Source of the DNA: Desulfoscipio gibsoniae DSM 7213
Lineage (GTDB): Bacteria; Bacillota; Desulfotomaculia; Desulfotomaculales; Desulfallaceae
DNA: 64,000 nucleotides
Assembly: GCF_000233715.2 (NCBI RefSeq)
Contig: NC_021184.1
Span: 2,504,001 to 2,568,000 of the forward strand
Direction: 5' to 3'
Made by a program: the position numbers and the translations under genes. The notes under the pieces were generated by a model. It was not told the DNA's origin and did no database searches. It was given only the letters and a program-made list of their open reading frames with translations. Shown here piece by piece: positions 4,215 to 24,570 of this stretch. The first letter of the stretch is position 1. Every line of letters begins with the position of its first letter.

Positions 4215-5747
4215 TCAGCGTCTTTCCCCTTCCCCCGGGTTGTTATTCCACCGGTTAAAATTAGTTGCCGGGTTATTGCTCCCCTTTTGCGGCGGCGTCC
4301 GCCCGGGCAAGTCGCCAAAGCCGGGCTTGATCCCAGACATGCCCGGCAAATTACGCGGAGCATATTTATTATCGGTTAATGCGGGTAGGGTAGGCAGCCC
4401 GTGGCTGATTGCACCGCTATTAATATTCTGTGCACCGGACAATCCATCATTCAAGCTTTCGGCCAGCACCGACAATCTACATTGCACGGATGCCGCGTGG
4501 GCGTCCAGCCCTTCCGTGCCGGCCAGTGCAACAATATGCTCACCGTCCCTGGCCAGTGCCCTGGGGGAATACCCAATTAAACTGGTTTTTTTCATAAAGG
4601 TATCTACATTGAGGGGTGAGAAAAATCTGGCCGTACCACCTGTAGGCAACACATGATTAGGACCGGCCATGTAATCGCCCACCGGCTCGGGTGAATAATG
4701 TCCAAGGAAAACAGCCCCGGCGTTGTTCACTGACCCCAGCCAGCGATAGGGATCGGACACCAGCAACTCCAGGTGCTCGGGAGCAAATGAATTGGCCACC
4801 TGGACAGCCTCATCCAGGGTAGCAGTGATAATGATGGCCCCTCTTTCGTTAATTGATTTTTCGGCTACCTTGCGCCGGCTCAATTTAGCGAGCTGCTTAC
4901 TGATTTGCTGCTGCACCTTTTCGGCTAACCCAACCACCGGCGTCACCAGTATGGATGAGGCCAGTTCATCATGCTCTGCCTGGGCCAGCATATCCGCAGC
5001 CACAAACTCTGGACTGGCCGATTCATCGGCAACAATAAGCACTTCACTGGGGCCGGCCAGCATATCTATATCCACCGCGCCAAACACCTGCCGTTTGGCC
5101 GCCGTTACATAAATATTTCCCGGACCCGTTATTTTATCCACCCGGGCAATGGTTGGAGTGCCATAGGCCAGCGCAGCTACAGCCTGGGCCCCGCCCACCC
5201 GGTAAATCTCTGTCACCCCCGCCTCGGCGGCCGCCACCAGTGTATAGGGGTTCACCGCGCCGCTGGAGTCGGGTGGCGTAACCATCACTATCTGCTTAAC
5301 CCCCGCCACTGCAGCGGGAATTGCGTTCATCAACACCGAGGAAGGATAGGACGCCTTACCCCCGGGCACATAGATACCCACCCTGCTCAGGGGCGAGATT
5401 ATCTGCCCCAGCATGGTACCGTCGGGTTGCGGGTCGATCCACGAATTGCGCAGCTGGCGGCAGTGATAACGATAAATATTTTGGGCGGCCACACGCAATG
5501 CTGCTAAAAAACGATCACTTACCTTTTGATAAGCAGCCTTTATTTCAGCATCCCCCACCGGAAGGTCCGAAGGTGCCAGATCAGCACCGTCCAACCTGTT
5601 GGTTATGGCACATAATTGGTCATCTCCACCATCCCGGACAGCATTAATAATATCCTTCACTACATTCTCAACCTTTTCCAAATCCACAGTTCTACTTTGT
5701 AACAGATTGGACAGGGCTTTATCCACTGATCTTATTATGCGAATCAA
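4215..5747 (-). CDS. hisD: HisD, histidinol dehydrogenase with long C-terminal tail
   Basis: HisD carries out the final two NAD-dependent oxidations from histidinol to histidine and needs zinc. Seen: ITGPGNIYVTAAKR, GPSEVLIVAD, the catalytic SFAPEHLEL segment and GPNHVLPTGGTARF. The start is a TTG with a strong AAAGGAGG upstream. The core ends around VQCRLSVLAESL near residue 433. About 75 further residues follow, rich in Pro, Gly and Asn, which normal HisD proteins (about 430 residues) lack. It is the first structural gene after the promoter at 5790-5818. Confidence 0.95.
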   Translation of the reverse strand: MIRIIRSVDKALSNLLQSRTVDLEKVENVVKDIINAVRDGGDDQLCAITNRLDGADLAPSDLPVGDAEIKAAYQKVSDRFLAALRVAAQNIYRYHCRQLRNSWIDPQPDGTMLGQIISPLSRVGIYVPGGKASYPSSVLMNAIPAAVAGVKQIVMVTPPDSSGAVNPYTLVAAAEAGVTEIYRVGGAQAVAALAYGTPTIARVDKITGPGNIYVTAAKRQVFGAVDIDMLAGPSEVLIVADESASPEFVAADMLAQAEHDELASSILVTPVVGLAEKVQQQISKQLAKLSRRKVAEKSINERGAIIITATLDEAVQVANSFAPEHLELLVSDPYRWLGSVNNAGAVFLGHYSPEPVGDYMAGPNHVLPTGGTARFFSPLNVDTFMKKTSLIGYSPRALARDGEHIVALAGTEGLDAHAASVQCRLSVLAESLNDGLSGAQNINSGAISHGLPTLPALTDNKYAPRNLPGMSGIKPGFGDLPGRTPPQKGSNNPATNFNRWNNNPGEGERR

Positions 5748-5789
5748 AAAATGCCCTCCTTTAATACATTAAAGCGATGATACAATAAA

Positions 5790-5818
5790 ATATTAAAGCA
5801 GTATCTCTCTACTGTCAA
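5790..5818 (-). promoter_or_regulatory. Sigma-A promoter of the his operon, with dyad
   Basis: On the minus strand TTGACA and TAATAT are separated by exactly 17 bp, ahead of the hisD ribosome binding site. A dyad GATAC...GTATC overlaps the -10 and spacer (about 5778-5805). Because a TrpR-like regulator gene lies immediately upstream, this dyad is a candidate operator. The promoter is seen; the operator role is inferred. Confidence 0.7.
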
Positions 5819-5820
5819 CA

Positions 5821-6141
5821 TTAATTTTTATCTTCACCTGCATCACCTGCGCTTTGCAGCCTGTCCAGTACTGTCTTATAACCATCCGCGCCGTAATTCA
5901 AAGATCTCTTCACTCTGCTAATGGTGGCCGTGCTGGCCCCCGTACGGGAAGCAATTTCACCGTAAGTGAAGTTACCTTGCAGCATTCTGGCCACCTCCAA
6001 CCGCTGCGCCATGGTTTTTAATTCTGTAACCGTGCAAACGTCCTCAAAAAATTGATAACACTCATCGGTATTGTTGAGCTTTAAAATAGCGTCAAAAAGT
6101 TGATCCAGTAAAGGATCGCGTAATTTTCCGGTGTAAGCCAC
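5821..6141 (-). CDS. yerC: YerC/YecD-type TrpR-superfamily regulator (HisR-like)
   Basis: A 106-residue all-helical protein of the TrpR/YerC family. Residues 20-50 resemble the family core (FFEDVCTVTELKTMAQRLEVA), and the helix-turn-helix is TYGEIASRTGASTATISRVKRSL near residues 59-81. Firmicute YerC proteins have been linked to regulation of histidine genes under the name HisR. Its position directly upstream of the his promoter on the same strand supports that role here. The effector is unknown from sequence. Confidence 0.85.
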   Translation of the reverse strand: MAYTGKLRDPLLDQLFDAILKLNNTDECYQFFEDVCTVTELKTMAQRLEVARMLQGNFTYGEIASRTGASTATISRVKRSLNYGADGYKTVLDRLQSAGDAGEDKN

Positions 6142-14408: not shown

Positions 14409-16229
14409 ATGACAACTACAAAAGCATCAATGGATAAAATTTTGGAATTAGCATTTGATCACACTATCTCTCCTATGGCTATATTAGATAAAAACTTTAA
14501 TTTTATAAAGGTGAACGAAGCTTATACTAAAGCCGATAATCGTGAAGTATCAGAATTTTCCGGACGCAACCACTTTGATTTATACCCGTCTGATTGTATA
14601 TCAATATTTGAAGAGGCTATAAAAACTAAAAAGGTATATCAAGCTTTTGCAAAACCTTTTGTATACGAAAAAAACCCAGAACGTGGAGTTACATATTGGG
14701 ATTGGACACTAGTACCGATCATAGGCGATACGGATGAAGTAGAATATCTTATTTTAACCCTTAAAGACGTAACAGCCAGTGAACGAGCAAAGATAGAAAT
14801 AGAAAACTTCTTGGAACTCTCCAATGATTTAATGTGCATAACAGATTGTGAGCCCAGCTTCAAGCGTACTAACCCAGCCTTTATGCAAATACTTGGATAC
14901 ACAAAAGAAGATCTCATTAATAAAAAAATTATAGATTTTGTCCATCATAATGATAAAGAGAAATTAATTTTGGCTAAAAAAGAAGCCATTGCCACCGGTA
15001 AGCTAGTAGCAAATTTAATAGTTAAAATCCGTTGCAGGAATGGAACATATAAATGGATTGAGTGGTCATGTGTACCTGAAATAGGACTAAATAATTTCTA
15101 CTGTATTGGGAGAGATATAACTGAACATGAAAAAAATCAAGAAAATTTGCTATTAATGAAAGAACGTTTTTCAAAAGCTTTCAATGCCAGCCCAAGCCTT
15201 ATGATAATATATGAATTTAAAACCGGGAGAATCATTGACGCTAATAAAAGTTTTTTACAAACAACTGGTTATAAGCTAGATGAGGTTTTAGGACATACGT
15301 CACTAGAATTAAAGCTATGGCCAAAAACCAAACAAAGAGAATTAATTAGATCAAAGATATTAAAAAAGGGGCATGTAAACAATCACGAAATAAAGTTCTA
15401 CTCAAAATCGGGTGCTATTCATATAGGGCTTTATTCGGCAGAGCTATTGAAGATAAATAACAAGACATACGCTTTAGCGTCAATAAATGATATTACAGAA
15501 GTCAAAAAAGTAGAAAAAGAAATGGCTAAACTGGACCGGTTAAATCTCGTTGGACAAATGGCAGCAGGTATTGGCCATGAAGTAAGGAACCCAATGACAA
15601 CAGTGCGTGGTTTCCTACAACTCATTTCTTCTAAAAAAGAAAGCACTAAATATAAAAATTACTATGATTTAATGATTGACGAATTGGATAGAGCTAATTC
15701 TATAATTACTGAGTTTTTATCTCTTGCCAAGCATAAGCCTGATAATCTGCAAAATAATAATCTTAATAAAATTATAAAAAATATTTACCCGCTAATTGAA
15801 GCTGAAGCTAGACGTCAAGACAAATTTTTTTCTTTAGATTTAGATGAAATCCCGGAAGCTTTATTAAATGAAAATGAGATTCGGCAGTTAGTCTTAAACC
15901 TTGTCCATAATGGCCTTGAGGCTATGTCTACTGGTGGAAAACTCACAATTAAAACAAGCATAGACTTGAACGAAGTCGTTTTATCCGTTAGTGACGAAGG
16001 ACCTGGGATAGATCCCGAAGTCCTAGAAAAAATCGGTACGCCTTTTTTTACAACTAAATGTAATGGAACAGGTCTAGGGCTGGCAGTTTGTTATAGTATT
16101 GTAAAAAGACATAACGCTATTGTAAATATTACTACCAGTCCTAAAGGAACCACTTTTCATGTGCGGTTCCGGAACCCTTTAGTCTGCAGTTCAAATTATG
16201 AAAGGATAAGCCATATTCAAGAAGGTTGA
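14409..16229 (+). CDS. PAS-domain sensor histidine kinase (sporulation-kinase-like)
   Basis: 606 residues, no membrane segments, so cytoplasmic. Three PAS domains are visible at about 10-125, 135-245 (with a PAC-like RCRNGTYKWIEWSC) and 255-370. The HisKA dimerisation box GIGHEVRNPMTTVRGFLQL is near residue 390, followed by the HATPase N box (LVLNLVHNGLEAM), G1 (DEGPGIDP) and G2 (TGLGLAVCYSIV). The H-E-x-R-N-P box is typical of Bacillus KinA/KinE kinases that feed the sporulation phosphorelay. No response regulator is adjacent, which fits an orphan kinase. Confidence 0.88.
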   Translation: MTTTKASMDKILELAFDHTISPMAILDKNFNFIKVNEAYTKADNREVSEFSGRNHFDLYPSDCISIFEEAIKTKKVYQAFAKPFVYEKNPERGVTYWDWTLVPIIGDTDEVEYLILTLKDVTASERAKIEIENFLELSNDLMCITDCEPSFKRTNPAFMQILGYTKEDLINKKIIDFVHHNDKEKLILAKKEAIATGKLVANLIVKIRCRNGTYKWIEWSCVPEIGLNNFYCIGRDITEHEKNQENLLLMKERFSKAFNASPSLMIIYEFKTGRIIDANKSFLQTTGYKLDEVLGHTSLELKLWPKTKQRELIRSKILKKGHVNNHEIKFYSKSGAIHIGLYSAELLKINNKTYALASINDITEVKKVEKEMAKLDRLNLVGQMAAGIGHEVRNPMTTVRGFLQLISSKKESTKYKNYYDLMIDELDRANSIITEFLSLAKHKPDNLQNNNLNKIIKNIYPLIEAEARRQDKFFSLDLDEIPEALLNENEIRQLVLNLVHNGLEAMSTGGKLTIKTSIDLNEVVLSVSDEGPGIDPEVLEKIGTPFFTTKCNGTGLGLAVCYSIVKRHNAIVNITTSPKGTTFHVRFRNPLVCSSNYERISHIQEG

Positions 16230-16263
16230 TCATTGCAATACATAAACCTAACCGAGCCCACCC

Positions 16264-16366
16264 TTCAAATATTGCCAATAAAAAACGGTGAAGCTGGGTA
16301 ATTAATTGCTATTGCTTGCGCAACATAACTTCCCATTGAATGACCAACAACAAACTGATTCCAAAT
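16264..16366 (-). pseudogene. Alpha/beta hydrolase fragment
   Basis: The minus strand encodes NQFVVGHSMGSYVAQAIAINYP, containing the nucleophile elbow G-H-S-M-G, and then stops. Neither the N- nor C-terminal parts of a hydrolase are found nearby. It is a relic about 34 codons long. Confidence 0.65.
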
Positions 16367-16369
16367 GAT

Positions 16370-16648
16370 ACAAAAGAGATAATCGCTGGGGGCTCTGAAG
16401 GCGTAACTGAGGCTTCTCCTCAGCTTTTTAAGCAAGATAGCGTGTGGAACCGCCTTATTAGATATTTATCATATACTTTTTAGAACAGTTTAATCTCATT
16501 AGGTCGGTGTTATGAATGGGCCATGCCCGCGTATAGATAACACAGCCTTCATTTTTTAATGAAAGCTGTGCTCGAGAAGTTTTTGAAAGAGCCAAAGGCC
16601 CTTCCAAAAACTCTCTAAAGAGAACAGTCCGCGCGTCCGAGATAAGTT
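16370..16648. other. Non-coding stretch with two hairpins
   Basis: No gene seen. CACAGCCTTCATT pairs imperfectly with AATGAAAGCTGTG (about 16538-16571), and GTTTTTGAAAGAGCC with GGCCCTTCCAAAAAC (about 16578-16611), both in the plus-strand direction. These may be terminators of lost genes. Confidence 0.5.
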
Positions 16649-16966
16649 AAGATAACCGCGTTGGCTGGCAGTACCCTCAAATATTTTTACTAATCTTAAA
16701 TTAGCTCAGGTTAACTACTTATTGATAGCCTTTTTACCTATATCCTTGCGATAATGCATGCCGCTAAACTTCACCCGAGATACGCCTTGATAAGCGAGTT
16801 CAATGGCCTCGGGGATACCCACAGCCCGCGCGGTTATGCCCAGCACCCGGCCACCCGCGGTAAAGCCGGATTTTACTGTTCTGCTTTCGGGCTATTAGGG
16901 CCCAAAAGCCGGCAAAAATCGTCAGGGTTATTAAACCCTAACGCTAGTATTAGCTTTTCATACTCT
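16649..16966 (-). repeat. purD 3'-end copy 2 (mosaic) plus 97-bp hairpin segment
   Basis: The left part (16649 to about 16795) matches the intact purD 3' end and its downstream flank at 27032-27178, including the KKAINK ending. The right part (from about 16769 to 16966) matches copy 1 at 7288-7485, including the 97-bp hairpin segment. A 27-bp stretch (16769-16795) identical in all three copies contains the switch point. The fragment has no purD N-terminus. Confidence 0.88.
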
Positions 16967-17160
16967 AAATAACTCCCTTTCTGTAACAGATAGTATCTCA
17001 CATTCATTTTCTTTAATTAAAACCATATCTTCCAATTTTACGGCACCATGTTCTGGATGTGTCAAATGAATTTCAATAGTTACTACATAATCACTTCTTA
17101 ATACAAAGTCCGACTTTTCAAATAATATAGGTGGCTCGTTAGTGGAAGAACCCGACAACC
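16958..17160 (-). pseudogene. M24 (Xaa-Pro dipeptidase-type) metallopeptidase, C-terminal fragment
   Basis: Residues such as YVVTIEIHL, GAVKLEDMVLI and ENECEIL match the end of creatinase-fold peptidases, including the Glu of the R/KLED metal site. The gene is cut on its 5' side by a transposase remnant near 17150 and on its 3' side by the purD-tail repeat, which supplies the stop codon. Confidence 0.6.
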
Positions 17161-18192
17161 TAGAAAGGAAAGCTTCTTCCTTTGAGGTATATCCGGCAAA
17201 CAAAGGCAAACTCATCCTGGACGCCACCTGCGCCCCGGCAGATATACGCTACCCCACAGACCTATCCTTGCTTAACGAAGCCAGGGAGAAGTTAGATGAC
17301 ATTATCGACATAGTGCATAAGACCCTTGGTAAGCCAGGTAAAAGACCGCGCACTTATCGTTAGATAGCCCGTAAAGCATATCTCAGCGTTGTTCACAACA
17401 AGAAACCTGTTAAAGAAAGCTATCCGTAAAGCCGTCGGTAAGCAGCTGCGCTATGTAAGTCGTAACCTGCATGCTATAGACCGCCTGCTTGCTATAGCCG
17501 GTGATAATCATGGCCTGGGTCGGAAACATTAGGAAACATTGTGCACCATACGTATGGTCTACGAACAGCAACTCTACATGTATACCCACCGTACCCACAA
17601 GATAAATGACCGTATTATCAGCATCAGCCAGCTGCATGTGCGTCCCATTGTTCGGGGTAAAGTCACTGCCGATACCGAGTTCGGTGCCAAAGTCGCCATC
17701 AGCATTGTAGACGGCTACGCCTATGTGGAAACGCTGAGTTGGGACGCCTTCAATGAAGGGATAACCTTAAAAGAATCGGTGGAATATTACCGCCAAAAGT
17801 ACGGGTGCTACCCTGAAGCTGTTCTGGCCGACAAGATCTACCGAAATAGAGAAAACCTGCGCTACTGCGAACAATATAGTATACGACTTAGTGGGCTAAG
17901 GCTAGGGAGACCACTTGTTGATAAAGTGCTACAGAAAGAACAGAAACGTTTGGAACGGCAGGACGCTAGCGAACGTAATGCTGTAGAAGGAAAATTCGGC
18001 GAAGCCAAGCGACGCTATGGTTTGGCTCGTATTATGGCGCGTTTGAAAGAGACCGCCGAAAGCGTAATCTGTCTACAGTTCCTGGTGATGAACTTGGAGC
18101 ATAGACTCCGTGTTCTTTTGTTCTATTTTCTGCGATATCTATTTCGGAGTAATCTGGCATTCGGGAGACCATCATTATGGTGTTTTAGTTGA
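17150..18192 (+). pseudogene. IS5-family transposase remnant
   Basis: DDE transposase pieces in at least two frames. 17160-17363 encodes GKLILDATCAPADIRYPTDL with the first Asp; stops near 17361 and 17530 and a frameshift near 17425 follow. 17539-18150 encodes the second half: the second Asp at AVLADKIYRNREN and the Glu region NAVEGKFGEAKRRYGL. The N-terminal about 150 residues and both ends of the element are not found. Confidence 0.8.
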
Positions 18193-18288
18193 AATTAGGA
18201 TCGGTTCAGCAAGCCCTAATTATGGTTGCGTAAAGGTTTCAGTAGTTAAGCAACCACCCAATAAAAACGGCAGGTATAGTACTTCTAA

Positions 18289-18987
18289 TTATTCCATATT
18301 AATTGCCAATTTTACCATTGGTGCATATTTTCGGCTTATAAAGACCTCTTTTGAAGTGCCTTCGAGTTTAACTAGGTAAGTCTTATTACCCCATGGCAAT
18401 ATTTTCTTAATCTTATTTATATTTACAAGGAAACTCTTATGTATACGTACAAATCCGGATTTACCCAGTTTGAATTCCAGGCTGTTTAAGCTAATGTTCG
18501 AATTATAAATGTTATTATTTGTATAAATAGTAACCTTTTTTAATCCTTTCTGCTTCTCAATTAGAAGTATTTCATCTGTATCTAAAAAAATAATTTCACT
18601 ACCTACCTTTATCGGTAACATATCTTTCTTTTTCGGCATGCACAATTGTCGAAGGCGTTTCAGGGTCAACTGGAACCGTTCTTCATCAATTGGCTTCAAT
18701 ACATAATCAACTGAACCTATTTCAAACGCCTCTACTGCATGATCGTGGTGGGCGGTAATAAAAACAATCTTAATGTTCTGGTCAATAGCCTTACTAACCT
18801 CAACACCCGAAACACTGGGCATTTGTATATCTAAAAAAACCACGTCAGGTTTTAGTATATTAATCTGTTTTATGGCAGTATCACCATCATATGCCTCACC
18901 AATAACTGTGAACCCAGTTTCATATGACAGTAATTTTTTTAAATAACTTAGTTCGATTGGGTTATCTTCTGCAATTAAAACCCTCAT
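18289..18987 (-). CDS. LytTR-family response regulator (AgrA-like)
   Basis: 232 residues. The receiver domain (1-120) has phospho-acceptor Asp in KPDVVFLDIQMPSVSGVEV and Lys in DYVLKPID. The LytTR DNA-binding domain (about 130-230) includes EILLIEKQKGLKKVTIYT and GFVRIHKSFLVNINKI. It lies downstream of the agrD- and agrB-like genes on the same strand, past a perfect 12-bp hairpin. By analogy with AgrA it would bind direct repeats upstream of the locus; no such repeats were confirmed. Confidence 0.92.
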   Translation of the reverse strand: MRVLIAEDNPIELSYLKKLLSYETGFTVIGEAYDGDTAIKQINILKPDVVFLDIQMPSVSGVEVSKAIDQNIKIVFITAHHDHAVEAFEIGSVDYVLKPIDEERFQLTLKRLRQLCMPKKKDMLPIKVGSEIIFLDTDEILLIEKQKGLKKVTIYTNNNIYNSNISLNSLEFKLGKSGFVRIHKSFLVNINKIKKILPWGNKTYLVKLEGTSKEVFISRKYAPMVKLAINME

Positions 18988-19004
18988 AATAACACTCCCA
19001 CTAG

Positions 19005-19032
19005 CTAAAGGGGACCTGATGGTCCCCTTTAG
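19005..19032 (-). terminator. Hairpin between agrD-like and response regulator genes
   Basis: CTAAAGGGGACC and its exact complement form a 12-bp stem with a 4-base loop. The minus-strand 3' side is CTAGTGGGAG rather than a T-run, so it may be a weak attenuator or an mRNA-stabilising hairpin that separates expression of agrBD from the regulator. Confidence 0.6.
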
Positions 19033-19075
19033 TCTAACTTAAAAAACAATTAGAATAAGTAAAACTAATTTGGGT

Positions 19076-19198
19076 CTATCTTAGTAATTCCGGCGGAGAT
19101 TTAGGTTGATAAATCGTTGACCAACTGGTCGGGTAAATTCCAATATAAGCTACGACACTGGCTGCACAGACTATCATACTCAATATAAATTTTTTCAT
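19076..19198 (-). CDS. agrD: AgrD-like cyclic autoinducer precursor peptide (40 aa)
   Basis: A 40-residue peptide from ATG 19198 with AAAGGAGG 10 bp upstream. It has a basic, hydrophobic amphipathic leader (MKKFILSMIVCAASVVAY), a central stretch containing PTSWSTIYQPK, and a tail SPPELLR. Leader, a Ser/Cys-containing core followed by a Pro-containing C-terminal tail is the layout of cyclic lactone autoinducer precursors in clostridia (YQPK is a recurring element in that family). The Ser in TSWSTIY may form the lactone. It is 23 bp after the agrB-like gene. Confidence 0.8.
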   Translation of the reverse strand: MKKFILSMIVCAASVVAYIGIYPTSWSTIYQPKSPPELLR

Positions 19199-19221
19199 TT
19201 GTCTTAAAAGCCTCCTTTCTT

Positions 19222-19824
19222 TTAAATAATTTGGTCGACCAACTTAAAAAACTTGGCGCCACTTTTAGTAACCGAAAACACCTGGAACAATATCCCCAAC
19301 CCTGAAGCTACATAAATCTTATCCTCAAAGTGCCAGTAAACTGAAATAAGCATGTATAGACCGACTACCAAGCAGGATGCAATTTTAAGGCATAGTCTCC
19401 TTTTAGGATTGATAATCGGCTTTTCTTGTACGTCTACCGGAGCTTTGGTTATCACCACTAAAAACGAAAATACTAGTATGCCCCAATATATTTCCTGGTA
19501 TGTGTATGGTAGCGCATAAGAACTGATATATATAGCGATAAAGGCAATCGCCAGGTAAGATGTCACCGAAACAATTAAACATCTGTAGAACTTAGAACAA
19601 TGAACCCCTCCAGCGACTATGCGCAAAATGGCAAAGCTAAAGTAAGCAACCATAAATTCTACTAAAACCCCTAACATCCAAGGCACAATAATAAAAACAG
19701 TAAATTTTATTAAGGCACCTATTATCACCTCAATACCGTAAGATACGATAGCCATTGTTTTATCGTCCAGGTCCAACTCTTTACCAATGTAGCCAGCCAC
19801 TTTTACAGACCATGAGTTTATCAA
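19222..19824 (-). CDS. agrB: AgrB-family autoinducer-processing membrane protease
   Basis: 200 residues, several membrane helices. The conserved catalytic His and Cys are in VAGGVHCSKFYRC, seven residues apart as in AgrB. The protein cleaves the C-terminal tail of AgrD and forms the thiolactone/lactone ring. Start TTG 19824 follows AGGTGA. It lies between the sensor kinase gene and the peptide gene in one minus-strand cluster. Confidence 0.93.
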   Translation of the reverse strand: MINSWSVKVAGYIGKELDLDDKTMAIVSYGIEVIIGALIKFTVFIIVPWMLGVLVEFMVAYFSFAILRIVAGGVHCSKFYRCLIVSVTSYLAIAFIAIYISSYALPYTYQEIYWGILVFSFLVVITKAPVDVQEKPIINPKRRLCLKIASCLVVGLYMLISVYWHFEDKIYVASGLGILFQVFSVTKSGAKFFKLVDQII

Positions 19825-19840
19825 AATTTTGTCACCTGCT

Positions 19841-20677
19841 CTATTTAGGGATAGTTACGTTGAATGCTTTAATGCCGGGGTCATATACTATATCCCCTCT
19901 GTATTCTTTAAGAGTTTGTTTAACTAGCGCTAAACCGTAACCACGGTTTTCTCCCTTAGTTGAAAAGCCGCTATCAAATATCCGATGGGTAATTTCCTGA
20001 CTAATCGGTGGGGCCGAGTCTATAACCAAAAAGCTATAGTAGTTTTTGGTTTGGTGAATTTCAAAGCGTATTTCTTTTTTTTCGATAACATCTGTCGCTT
20101 TTATAGCTTCCGTAGCATTATCAATCAGGTTGCCGAAAATGGTGGTGATCGACATTGGTTTTAAAATAAAATGTTCAAGTCGGCTGTTTACCTCAATGAT
20201 TAAGTCAATACCCTGCATAAAAAGATCTTGTTTTTTGTTTTGTAATAAGGTTCTGAGGTATGGGTTATTAATAGTCAGCAACTGGCTGTTAAAACGGTAG
20301 TCGGCACCCATGCTTTTTAGATAGTTAGCGGCTTCCTCATTATTACCGACTGCAATGAGACCATATATGGCCTGGAGATGGTTGATAAAATCATGTCTTT
20401 CACTGCGCATGGTTCTCATTGCCTCTTCAACCGAATAAAGGCTTATTTTGTGTAACTGGGCCTCACGCTGTAAACTCTCTATCCTGGACATCCATAAATA
20501 AAAAAGCAGGGCTATGACAAAATTGATTACCGTTACCAGCGGAAATAATAATTCGTTTATACTGTGCTGAGTACTATAATAACTTGACGTCCTGGCTCCT
20601 ACTAATATTAGTAGGTTAAAAGCCAATAAACTCACGGTAAGCTTATGAATGTTATTGTTGGATTCAAAATAGACCAT
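19841..20677 (-). CDS. AgrC-like sensor histidine kinase, short membrane part
   Basis: 278 residues. Only two membrane helices are seen (about 10-28 and 42-63). The phospho-acceptor region is MRSERHDFINHLQAIYGL near residue 115, as in the Spo0B/GHKL type, and the ATPase has NLIDNATEAI (N box) and GYGLALVKQTL (G2). Classical AgrC has six or more membrane helices for peptide sensing; here the next gene upstream (20691-21158) may supply them. The stop lies 16 bp before agrB. Confidence 0.88.
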   Translation of the reverse strand: MVYFESNNNIHKLTVSLLAFNLLILVGARTSSYYSTQHSINELLFPLVTVINFVIALLFYLWMSRIESLQREAQLHKISLYSVEEAMRTMRSERHDFINHLQAIYGLIAVGNNEEAANYLKSMGADYRFNSQLLTINNPYLRTLLQNKKQDLFMQGIDLIIEVNSRLEHFILKPMSITTIFGNLIDNATEAIKATDVIEKKEIRFEIHQTKNYYSFLVIDSAPPISQEITHRIFDSGFSTKGENRGYGLALVKQTLKEYRGDIVYDPGIKAFNVTIPK

Positions 20678-20690
20678 CTTTCCCTCACTA

Positions 20691-21158
20691 TTAACAGACT
20701 GTTGTTTGATTGGTTAAATATTTTTTCTTAATAAAGAAAGTTAAAACCGCCCAAACGAATAGGTGTGGCCAACCTATGAGCGTTTTATCCAAAGGAGATA
20801 ACGCTATAACATCTTTCACACTAAAGTGTAGATAGTACTGGATAAAGTTAAGAATAGTGTTTTCTAAGGCCACAAGTGTGCCAAGGCTTAAGAGAGCAGA
20901 AAGTAAGCTTTGTTTAATACTTAATCCTAAAACCGTATAAAACAAGATAAATACTACTAAAAAACCAATTATCGTGTGAACACCATAGGGTAAAGGCAAT
21001 AATCTAGCAATATATGAACTCAGCACAGAGCAGACGGTTGCTAACACAATTGGGGCGGGTTTTATAACCTTTTTATAAATAACCAATCCAAATGAAAAAA
21101 TGAGAAAGCTTTCTGGTAAAGAATAAAACAATAGTGTTATTAATGGTACTTTATCCAT
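20691..21158 (-). CDS. Polytopic membrane protein of the agr-like locus
   Basis: 155 residues from ATG 21158 (GGGGTG upstream); the frame extends to 21197 without a better site. Five or so hydrophobic helices are visible, ending with a positively charged IKKKYLTNQ tail. No catalytic motif was recognised. It is the first gene of the cluster (membrane protein, kinase, AgrB, AgrD, LytTR regulator). Its size and place resemble the N-terminal sensor half missing from the adjacent kinase, which is an inference. Confidence 0.75.
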   Translation of the reverse strand: MDKVPLITLLFYSLPESFLIFSFGLVIYKKVIKPAPIVLATVCSVLSSYIARLLPLPYGVHTIIGFLVVFILFYTVLGLSIKQSLLSALLSLGTLVALENTILNFIQYYLHFSVKDVIALSPLDKTLIGWPHLFVWAVLTFFIKKKYLTNQTTVC

Positions 21159-21593
21159 TGATACACCCCTTTTCTTTTTAATTACTATATTTGACACGGA
21201 TTTCCTTTTTTCTTTAGGTGTATTTTATGGCTATAAAAGGGCATCTTGGGGTGGTTTCTAGTAATTGGTTATATTTTATCAGTTATAGATATGTCTGTAA
21301 TTGGAAAACTTCAAAATGAGTTAGCCAAAATCGTGGAAAATTAAAGCACTCTTCAAGTCAAAACTACCAAGTTTGAGTAGGCCGCTCCGGAAAAGGGATA
21401 AAGGGATCATTAAAAACGTGCGCCTCCTGGCATTAATTAATCCAGGGGGGTTCTTTATGACCCGTTTACCAAGGTTTTATCACGAAGAAATTACTAAAGG
21501 TAATTTTTTTTAAATACCGTTTTTAAAAAGAGCTTTTTTAAACAATCTGCTAACTCTATAACCGCTTATCGGCTGGTGGTCGGGTGTTAAGGA
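21159..21593. other. Intergenic region upstream of the agr-like locus
   Basis: AT-rich. A hairpin CCTGG...CCAGG lies near 21427-21447, followed by an 18-codon reading frame (21457-21513, MTRLPRFYHEEITKGNFF) that resembles only the beginning of a REP-associated transposase and then stops. The promoter of the agr-like locus should be on the minus strand in 21190-21320, but no clear -35/-10 pair was identified. Confidence 0.4.
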
Positions 21594-21745
21594 TGTTTGT
21601 TGTAAGATAAAAATACCGAAAGTTGCAAGTTAAAAATCCATAATGTTGCAATTGGAAATTCCATAGTAATGCAAAAATCCATTGCAGGCATAAACCATAA
21701 CCAATATCCTTGTATTTGACCAAAGAATGCAAGGAGGAGAGGAGC

Positions 21746-23275
21746 ATGCTTACAATGGACAAGATACATGATATCAGATTCCGTTTCTTCGTGAAAGGAG
21801 AAAACATTTCCCAAATCGCAGATGCATTGCATTTGGATTGGAAGACGGTACAGAAGTATGTCGACATGGCGGACTTCAACAAACCGGCTCCCAAACCGGC
21901 TTCGGAACAGCGTTTCTGTCCCAAGTTGGATCCCTACAAGCCGACTATTGATAAATGGCTTGAAGAGGACAAACAGGCACCCCGTAAACAGCGGCATACC
22001 GCCAAGAGGGTATTTAACCGTCTTAGGAAGGAATCCCCCGGGTTTAACTGTTCATACAGGACGGTTGCTTCCTACTATGCTGTAAAACACAAGGAACTTT
22101 TTAACGGTGCCAAGGGCGGATTCCTTCCACTGGAACACCGTCCAGGTGAGGCGCAAGTTGATTTCGGCACAGCCGATTTTTATGAAAATGGCACACGGCT
22201 AACCGGAAAATATCTTGAAGTGTCATTCCCATACAGCAACAAAGGCTACTTGCAACTGTTCTATGGTGAAAACATGGAATGCCTTCTGGAAGGACTTGAC
22301 GCCATCTTTCGGCACATTGGTGTTGTACCCGACGAATTGTGGTTTGATAACACCAAAACCATCATAACAAAAGTAATTCGGGGTGGCGGACGTGAGACCA
22401 CCGAACGGTTTGATCGTTTCCGGGAACACTACATTTTTCAAGCCGTATTTATGAACCCCGGTGAAGGCCATGAAAAAGGCAATGTCGAAAACAAAGTCGG
22501 TTACCAGAGGCGTAACTTTCTTGTCCCCATGCCGCACTTTCTTGCGCTTTCCGATTTCAACCGGCAGCTTCTCGACATGTGCGAGGAAGATGCCAACAGG
22601 GAGCATTACCGCCGCAATGAGACCATTGAGGAATTGTTTGCGGAAGACTTAAAACACTGCCATCCTCTTCCTGAAATCGAGTTCGACCTAAGTGGCAAAG
22701 GTAATGCTACCACCAACAACTGGGGCAAATTTTATCTGAACAAAGGGATGCACGAATACTCGGTTTCACCGAAATATGCAAATACAGTGGTTAAACTGAA
22801 ACTGACATCATCGCTTGTCATCGTCATGGACGAGAACTACCGTGAAATCGTAAGACACCGTCGCCTTTACGGCGATACCAAAAAGCAGAGCATGGACTGG
22901 CTTCCATATCTCAGGCAGCTTTCCATACGTCCACGCGCATTGAAATATTCGGGTATCTATGACATGATGCCGCCTGCAATGAAACAATTCCTTGAGGGCT
23001 GCTCCAATACGGAAACAGGAAAGGTTCTTAAAGTTCTGGCAGAACTCACGGACAGAACAGGCTTTGACAGTGCGCTCAGTACCGTCAATCAGGCACTCTG
23101 TTACGGCGCATCTGATGCGGATAGCCTTAAGAACCTCTACCGGCGTATTTACGCTGATGTGCCGGAACTTCCGCCGATGCCGCTCAATTCGGAAATACCG
23201 GATGTCGGTCAGATGACAACCAACCTTATCGCTTACGATACCTTCCTGAAGAAGGGGGGTGCCGCAAATGCCTGA
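21746..23275 (+). CDS. istA: IstA, IS21-family transposase
   Basis: 509 residues from ATG 21746 behind GGAGAGGAG. N-terminal HTH (NISQIADALHLDWKTVQKYV), then the rve catalytic domain: first Asp in PGEAQVDFGTADF, second Asp in PDELWFDNTKTII, Glu in GHEKGNVENKVGYQRR. A C-terminal Mu-like domain follows. The gene appears intact and overlaps istB by a few bases, as normal. Confidence 0.95.
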   Translation: MLTMDKIHDIRFRFFVKGENISQIADALHLDWKTVQKYVDMADFNKPAPKPASEQRFCPKLDPYKPTIDKWLEEDKQAPRKQRHTAKRVFNRLRKESPGFNCSYRTVASYYAVKHKELFNGAKGGFLPLEHRPGEAQVDFGTADFYENGTRLTGKYLEVSFPYSNKGYLQLFYGENMECLLEGLDAIFRHIGVVPDELWFDNTKTIITKVIRGGGRETTERFDRFREHYIFQAVFMNPGEGHEKGNVENKVGYQRRNFLVPMPHFLALSDFNRQLLDMCEEDANREHYRRNETIEELFAEDLKHCHPLPEIEFDLSGKGNATTNNWGKFYLNKGMHEYSVSPKYANTVVKLKLTSSLVIVMDENYREIVRHRRLYGDTKKQSMDWLPYLRQLSIRPRALKYSGIYDMMPPAMKQFLEGCSNTETGKVLKVLAELTDRTGFDSALSTVNQALCYGASDADSLKNLYRRIYADVPELPPMPLNSEIPDVGQMTTNLIAYDTFLKKGGAANA

Positions 23276-24035
23276 AGAAGAAATCATTGGCTGCTGCAAA
23301 AAACTGAAGCTGAGCCGCAATCTGGCCGATATGTCACAGACAACGGAGGGCGAATCACATCAGGAATACTTATATAAACTACTGTCTGCAGAACTGAAAA
23401 ACCGTGAACAGGGTCGTACAGCCAAATTGATTAACAGTGCTGGTTTCTACAGCATCAAAACATTTGACGGATTTCGTTTTGATGAAATCACGCTCCCTTC
23501 CGACCTGGCACCGGAAAGCCTAAAGTCCCTTGATTTCATCAAGGAAAAGAAAAATGTCATCATGTACGGCAGGACAGGTACCGGGAAAACCATGCTTTCC
23601 ACTGCGCTTGGCGTGAGCGCTTGCCAGAAAGGAATTCCCGTCAAATTCTACCGCACTGCAGCACTGGTCAACCAGCTTTCGGAAGCCAAGAAGGCCGGCA
23701 CACTGGGGACGCTGTTGAAAAAACTGAATAAAGCATCTGTCATTATACTGGACGAGTGGGGCTACGTACCATACGACCGTACCGGTGCCCAGTTGCTCTT
23801 TGACTATCTCTCCGAGATACATGAGCACAAGTCCATCATACTGAACACGAACCTGGAGTTTTCCAGGTGGGTCAATGTACTCTATGATGAGCAGATGACT
23901 GTCGCCCTTGTAGGCAGACTCATGCACCACTGCTATCTTCTCCTGTTTCCGGGAGAGAACAACCGGTTAAGGGAGTCCAGTATCAATGATCTTTACCGCT
24001 CAATAGCGTCAACAGATAAGAAGGAGGGTCACTGA
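23268..24035 (+). CDS. istB: IstB, IS21-family helper ATPase
   Basis: 255 residues. Walker A is MYGRTGTGKTMLSTALG, Walker B is ASVIILDEWGY. The DnaC-like AAA+ protein assists IstA in strand transfer. ATG 23268 is preferred over 23259 because of GGGGGG eight bases upstream. It overlaps the istA end. Confidence 0.95.
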   Translation: MPEEEIIGCCKKLKLSRNLADMSQTTEGESHQEYLYKLLSAELKNREQGRTAKLINSAGFYSIKTFDGFRFDEITLPSDLAPESLKSLDFIKEKKNVIMYGRTGTGKTMLSTALGVSACQKGIPVKFYRTAALVNQLSEAKKAGTLGTLLKKLNKASVIILDEWGYVPYDRTGAQLLFDYLSEIHEHKSIILNTNLEFSRWVNVLYDEQMTVALVGRLMHHCYLLLFPGENNRLRESSINDLYRSIASTDKKEGH

Positions 24036-24036
24036 T

Positions 24037-24423
24037 ATGACCATAAACAAACCAATTATCAGAGAACTTGAACATACATACAGGAGGTCTTTTCCCAATG
24101 ACCTTAAGCGGTATCTGCTCGTGAAATATGCAGAAGAGCCATTTCCGTATGAATTCACCGAACAGGATCTTTATGCTAACATCCGGCGGGATATTCGTGA
24201 TTATGAGGCCGGGGAACTGGATGTCACAGTAAAAAGCCCGTCCGAACGCTGGCAGGAAGAGCGTGAGCACCTTAAGAATCTGTATATTGAAAAATCCTGC
24301 GAGGCACGTGATCTTAAGGAATATGTTGCCGAATTGGAACAAATGCTTTCAGATCACGGTCTGGAATCTTCCAGAATGGCAGAACGGCGGATTGAATACT
24401 TAACCGAATCACTGTCTTTTTAA
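24037..24423 (+). CDS. Hypothetical protein carried by the IS21 element
   Basis: 128 residues. The ATG overlaps the region just after the istB stop and has AAGGAGG upstream, so it is likely co-transcribed with istAB. The sequence is charged, with a predicted coiled coil in the C-terminal third (EREHLKNLYIEKSCEARDL and on). No domain recognised. A third gene is not part of the minimal IS21 and marks a subgroup or passenger. Confidence 0.7.
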   Translation: MTINKPIIRELEHTYRRSFPNDLKRYLLVKYAEEPFPYEFTEQDLYANIRRDIRDYEAGELDVTVKSPSERWQEEREHLKNLYIEKSCEARDLKEYVAELEQMLSDHGLESSRMAERRIEYLTESLSF

Positions 24424-24570
24424 TTAATTCAGGTAACAAATGCCTGCAAGTCTTCTCTTTCCCTGTAGAACATGGCGGGGAAAGAGAACTTGCAACATTG
24501 TGGAAAATGGAGATGCAATACTATGGAAAAATTACTTGCAACTTTCTCCAAAAAGCTCTTGCAAAAAACA

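Follow-up and report, generated by a model that had tools for sequence, protein, structure and literature searches.

The stretch of DNA analysed here (the window, 64,000 nucleotides) corresponds to positions 2504001-2568000 of the one-contig genome of Desulfoscipio gibsoniae, which comprises 4,855,529 bases; all further coordinates are counted within the window. It carries an operon of five genes, all on the minus strand, which encode in the order N-K-B-D-A a 155-aa protein with five predicted membrane helices, here named AgrC-N (20691..21158), a 278-aa kinase, here named AgrC-C (19841..20677), the 200-aa cysteine peptidase AgrB (19222..19824), the 40-aa autoinducer precursor AgrD (19076..19198), and a 232-aa AgrA-like response regulator with Response_reg (PF00072) and LytTR (PF04397) domains (18289..18987). 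A first-pass annotation had placed five minus-strand frames in this order and at these places, as the ORF coordinates bear out. The operon is flanked on one side by the 3' portion of a transposase gene of the IS5 family (17539-18192), of which longer copies exist elsewhere in the genome, and on the other side by a transposase gene pair (21710-24035), which we take to be IS21. Upstream of the first gene, a block at 21159..21260 (minus strand) is kept in the nearest relatives (L076, L077/L032) and is a possible promoter or regulator region. In some relatives near repeats with a spacing of 21 bp occur upstream as candidate regulator-binding sites; in the five best loci 16 to 36 of 200 shuffles were equally good, and at the window locus 199 of 200; the repeats are not significant. 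The gap between agrD and the regulator gene contains a perfect 12-bp hairpin without U-tail (19005..19032, minus strand), and the surrounding 96-nt stretch folds far better than its shuffles (z -4.7); the hairpin perhaps sets the ratio of signal to regulator. Scans for promoters and terminators gave no excess over shuffles, and Rfam yielded no match within 16000-24500.

The sequence features by which an agr locus is recognised, namely AgrB with catalytic His and Cys, AgrD, and a LytTR response regulator, are present. AgrB was assigned by Pfam (PF04647, E 1.1e-42), and its H75 and C82 are invariant in all 144 aligned AgrB proteins longer than 180 aa; by spacing they correspond to H77 and C84 of Staphylococcus aureus, as given in the accessible part of the source (PMC10196373). 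AgrD exceeds the cut-off of the NCBIfam model TIGR04223 quorum_AgrD (32.2 versus 19 bits), and model and alignment together support the leader, the Cys/Ser ring and the Pro-rich tail of an AgrD. The first-pass annotation had called this frame an AgrD-like peptide with the core PTSWSTIYQPK. Its identity as AgrD stands, as does its conservation beside AgrB in relatives, a check that was run and passed; the core has to be narrowed, since the ring likely comprises only S25-W-S-T-I29 (19112..19126, minus strand). This predicted lactone ring of the mature peptide is an inference from the alignment and from analogy with known five-residue rings, and it resembles the Ser ring of S. pseudintermedius, RIPT[STGFF], as far as the latter is covered by the available text (PMC12312760).

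The kinase carries the Pfam domains SPOB_a and HATPase_c_5, with H95 as the phosphoacceptor candidate; its N-box lies at 183 and its G-box at 245. Two hydrophobic segments precede the GHKL domains, in agreement with the earlier description of a 278-residue GHKL kinase with two membrane helices. Among NCBIfam models the kinase scores best with DcuS/MalK (113 bits, cut-off 520), which covers only the dimerisation and histidine phosphotransfer (DHp) and ATPase part, while the Staphylococcus AgrC model ranks third (52 bits) and spans the helices as well (7-255 of the kinase). Of this AgrC model, NF046015, positions 47-394 are matched by a one-piece kinase from this genome and positions 134-392 by the window kinase; the scores of 55.7 and 48.4 bits are far under the cut-off of 500, and at the threshold used the model also matches Escherichia coli and Bacillus subtilis among 14 control genomes. 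In an alignment with 21 one-piece proteins, the two helices of the kinase coincide with the final two helices of their sensors (hydropathy r 0.86, positions 10-75). In the AlphaFold prediction (pLDDT 77.7, pTM 0.56, five-sequence input) there are two helices, the second of which is continuous into the DHp domain, and a Foldseek search ranked the S. aureus AgrC kinase module 6e52 fourth, amid many kinases.

For AgrC-N, the ATG at 21158 is preferred over a longer GTG frame (21197) because the initial M-D is shared by all 19 aligned relatives and because an AAGGGG stretch lies 5' of this ATG. The protein reaches the cut-off of no Pfam or NCBIfam family. Relatives were found in 39 of 60 related genomes searched, both as separate frames of approximately 150-200 aa and as the starts of frames of approximately 440-500 aa, and profile A1 matches 122 of 398 genomes of the phylum at E 1e-8. 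When the family of separate AgrC-N proteins lying next to a kinase (split) was compared with the N-termini of one-piece AgrC-type kinases from the same genome, order and phylum, hhalign returned E 1.9e-27 over 149 columns; in the one-piece proteins the N profile spans the initial 150 or so residues, followed by the kinase profile from about 160-215 onward. The link to AgrC runs via these one-piece kinases of the phylum, and no direct comparison with Staphylococcus AgrC was made. The split N family is also related, profile versus profile, to N proteins without such a kinase (solo; E 1.7e-31). The residues kept are S or G13, P15, E16, R52, G59, H61, E99, and P131. Of the 60 split and the 21 fused N parts, 53-60 and 18-21 retain P15, E16, R52, G59, and H61, 52 and 21 retain E99, and 59 and 19 retain P131, respectively. 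Solo N proteins are less strict, with 83 to 97 of 102 retaining each kept residue except at position 13, which is G in 70. AlphaFold predicts five helices for AgrC-N (pLDDT 85.5, pTM 0.80, six-sequence input); the N-terminus is predicted to lie outside and the C-terminus inside. Among solved folds no Foldseek match was below E 0.001 (best E 1.9), and the best VIA-align Z of 6.0 over 76 residues carries little weight for a helical protein; structure searches with both halves gave AgrC solely as its cytoplasmic part.

How the two genes are arranged in relatives was assessed in 161 annotated regions (the window, 100 taken from N hits and from loci of its own genome, and 60 from agrB hits). These contain 191 N domains, of which 60 are split, 21 fused, 102 solo, and eight have a more distant short kinase. 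The 60 adjacent pairs of AgrC-N and short kinase, distributed over 20 family codes, answer the check for a conserved gene pair that the first-pass annotation had suggested. In 57 of them the genes are separated by no more than 25 nt, half of those overlapping, with the overlaps depending on the chosen start codon (the first start was taken). By regular expression, 43 of the 60 split kinases have the H-box, 55 the N-box, and 57 the G-box; the H-box count reflects the search pattern, since the aligned H95 column shows H in each of the 58 split rows that have a letter there. No AgrB lies within 2.5 kb of nine split pairs, seven of which have over 3 kb of downstream sequence; some of the nine are possibly receptor-only loci, others are truncated or degenerate. 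A quickly built tree of 84 kinases, which carries a long-branch warning and in which two long branches meet, needs 6 to 7 changes of form, three forced by starred branches, and places the window kinase within a clade that comprises ten split kinases (SH-aLRT 99). The genome of the window itself holds the split form twice, the fused form twice, one solo N gene with agrB, and one N fragment.

Of 113 genomes in the order, 93 contain AgrB. A less biased sample was drawn by taking the odd rows among the best-scoring agrB matches listed, which gave 68 loci: 41 with a solo N, 16 with a separate kinase, seven fused, and four with no N. Within this sample of best-scoring matches the fetched region thus contains an N gene in 64 of 68 cases, and the commonest arrangement in the order is, unexpectedly, an N part beside agrB without an AgrC-type kinase (41/68). 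The 16 separate-kinase loci include L042, L043, and L220, as well as L040 with a degenerate kinase and L234 with fragments; L043 holds a fused locus as well. The loci L042, L043, and L220 show two tandem N genes ahead of agrB-agrD, followed by a separate kinase of 281-304 aa and a regulator; five of their six N proteins measure 224-248 aa by first start, and the tandem genes possibly encode paired receptors. The L040 kinase (5202-5918, minus strand) lacks the usual H-box in the alignment and is a possible pseudokinase. At L076 an AgrC-N gene (4342-4806), 59% identical to that of the window, has no kinase or agrB found beside it; it could be a remnant or a subunit that stands alone. Of 74 solo loci, 41 gave a kinase match within 4 kb on the same strand; the eight kinases from solo loci that were examined all contain HisKA, and seven contain a PAS domain.

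Carriage of these genes on mobile elements was searched for as well. No AgrC-N was found in viral contigs with alignment A1 and two solo N proteins, nor by tblastn in phages, and the window AgrC-N had no match in plasmids. One solo N protein gave a single plasmid match, in a record named Klebsiella; with AgrB, each query matched one phage record, and seven plasmid records were matched. The plasmid-named Klebsiella pneumoniae record (L254, 3364-4747) carries AgrC-N, AgrB, and AgrD frames of clostridial type and probably reflects contamination or a wrong label. Two uncharacterised proteins from phages (BFVD A0A8S5PKY4 and A0A8S5S981; 165 and 158 aa) match the fold of the AgrC-N model with TM 0.69 and probability 1.00, but with E values of 0.012 and 0.036; on the basis of the models, it is possible that they are phage-borne receptor modules.

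We consider it probable, with good confidence, that the operon encodes an agr-type quorum sensing system in which the AgrC receptor kinase is distributed over two polypeptides; the association of the two and the sensing of the peptide are inferred. What can be read from sequence is that each half is homologous to one-piece AgrC-type kinases, that the pairing is conserved, and that the catalytic motifs, AgrB and AgrD are present. The homology of AgrC-N to one-piece sensors, itself a sequence-level result, outweighs gene order as support, and it counts against the objection that the membrane protein might be unrelated to the kinase type. The chain break is best explained as falling into the loop that connects sensor helices 5 and 6. 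In our reading by the positive-inside rule this loop is cytoplasmic, so that neither half need change its topology. Homology, pairing, topology, and cut point are all accounted for by an AgrC in two chains. Sensing and kinase functions had been suggested to sit on two proteins: the two-protein split holds and is supported by homology, but two sensor helices stay on the kinase, and a separation into one sensor and one kinase protein is inexact because the cut runs through the membrane sensor (5 + 2 helices); the arrangement is, moreover, widespread. Most likely, the halves reassemble in the membrane as a seven-helix peptide receptor, although their contact was not modelled. The distances of N and K are correlated (Mantel r 0.88, with none of 1000 shuffles as high), which common descent and linkage can also produce.

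In the proposed mechanism, AgrB would cyclise and cleave AgrD to yield a Ser-lactone peptide with the ring SWSTI, whose structure is inferred. The five helices of AgrC-N and the two of AgrC-C would join in the membrane to form the seven-helix sensor, and binding of the peptide would shift the helix that runs unbroken into the DHp bundle. The kinase would then phosphorylate H95 and the phosphate would pass to the LytTR regulator, which is inferred to control target genes and probably the operon, too.

Compared with a classical AgrC, the kinase has the SPOB_a-type DHp domain and the GHKL ATPase, does not score over the NCBIfam cut-off (48.4 versus 500 bits), and is no single chain, the sensor and kinase ORFs lying in different frames with stop codons between them; an N-terminal sensor module homologous to that of the phylum's one-piece kinases is supplied in trans. 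The locus shares AgrB, AgrD, a GHKL sensor kinase, and a LytTR regulator with agrBDCA of the S. aureus type and differs from the Staphylococcus operon in its two-chain receptor and the order N-K-B-D-A. The match to the Staphylococcus AgrC model begins, below cut-off, at position 134, and this boundary coincides with that of the laboratory construct AgrC-TM5-6C (134-430), which likewise consists of two helices and the kinase and, according to the portion of the report at hand, is constitutively active in liposomes (PMC3841183). That construct is a man-made fragment, whereas in the window the missing half is encoded just upstream. A single kinase function is spread over two proteins also in CheA3/CheA4, where the available text describes phosphoacceptor and catalytic domains apart (PMC3591291); in the window H95 and the ATPase boxes share the 278-aa protein, and the membrane sensor is cut instead. 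No two-chain AgrC was described in the titles and abstract starts of the literature searched, subscription papers and preprints being outside that scope, nor in the accessible parts of PMC5322536, PMC3673130, PMC8895600, PMC8748961, and PMC10301443. One-piece agr systems and split CheA are already known, and an AgrC in two chains is a variant of the agr kind.

That AgrC-N instead works with AgrB to make or export the peptide, which the two-helix kinase would sense alone, appears unlikely to us. An N gene occurs at 64 of the 68 agrB loci sampled among the best-scoring matches listed, 41 of them without an AgrC-type kinase, so that AgrC-N may have a role of its own; moreover, AgrC 134-430 alone gave an about two-fold response to the peptide in the part of the study available (PMC3841183), and the N part may therefore not be strictly needed. 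The one-piece proteins, however, join the AgrC-N module to a kinase, and AgrB is missing within 2.5 kb from the nine split pairs mentioned above, including the seven with ample downstream sequence. LiaS and BceS are families of two-helix intramembrane-sensing kinases. A kinase of this type with an unrelated accessory membrane protein would fit the two helices, the short outer loop, and the polytopic partner on a separate chain, yet it is very improbable given that this partner shares homology with the N-terminal part of AgrC-type kinases in one piece, that the AgrC model match spans the kinase helices (7-255), and that the operon contains AgrB and AgrD.

Next to no weight remains for a one-piece agrC broken by a frameshift or a sequencing error. 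Transposase genes do flank the operon, and degenerate or fragmentary kinases exist at other loci (L040, L150, L234). Against such decay stand the 60 pairs in 20 family codes, the well-supported ten-row split clade including the window (SH-aLRT 99), and a further split pair elsewhere in this genome; at the locus itself each half has its own start and ribosome-binding stretch, AgrC-N ends in three consecutive stop codons, and the catalytic motifs of the kinase are present.

Among the AgrD frames from loci of a single class, the ring position is S in 45, C in 12, and another residue in three frames of split loci, S in 14 and C in two frames of fused loci, and C in 61, S in one, and unreadable in four frames of solo loci; the loci are related, descent was not corrected for, and some frames may be spurious. 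Published peptides match this trend in part, as judged from the accessible text of one source: Clostridioides difficile agr1 and Clostridium perfringens, given without agrC, have a Cys ring, C. difficile agr2 with agrC has a Ser ring, and S. aureus, Listeria monocytogenes, and Clostridium acetobutylicum have a Cys ring although agrC is present (PMC12312760). The agr-like operon of C. perfringens, as outlined in the available parts of two reports, consists of two hypothetical genes, agrB, and agrD without agrC, and VirS is the reported receptor; how a peptide is sensed at agrBD loci that lack agrC has been debated for this species (PMC2706048; PMC7492741). This is the layout of N-N-B-D loci found here, a likeness of layout only, as the proteins were not compared.

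A wider reading, which we put forward tentatively and hold to be possible rather than probable, is that the N-module of AgrC serves generally as a separable receptor subunit for cyclic peptides, with interchangeable kinases, and that the form of the receptor tracks ring chemistry. The partners of N-modules would be two-helix AgrC-C proteins or neighbouring HisKA kinases, often PAS-bearing and possibly feeding Spo0A; Cys (thiolactone) rings would go with the solo module, and mostly Ser (lactone) rings with AgrC-type kinases. A solo N protein may be either the receptor for another kinase or a partner of AgrB. The data suggest that some agr systems regarded as receptor-less may have a receptor part after all. 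If this is true, agrBD systems called AgrC-less would not lack a receptor, and the unannotated solo N-module is a testable candidate for peptide sensing at agrBD loci without agrC. The natural two-part AgrC, if confirmed, would mark the internal joint of the receptor and would yield two smaller proteins for its study.
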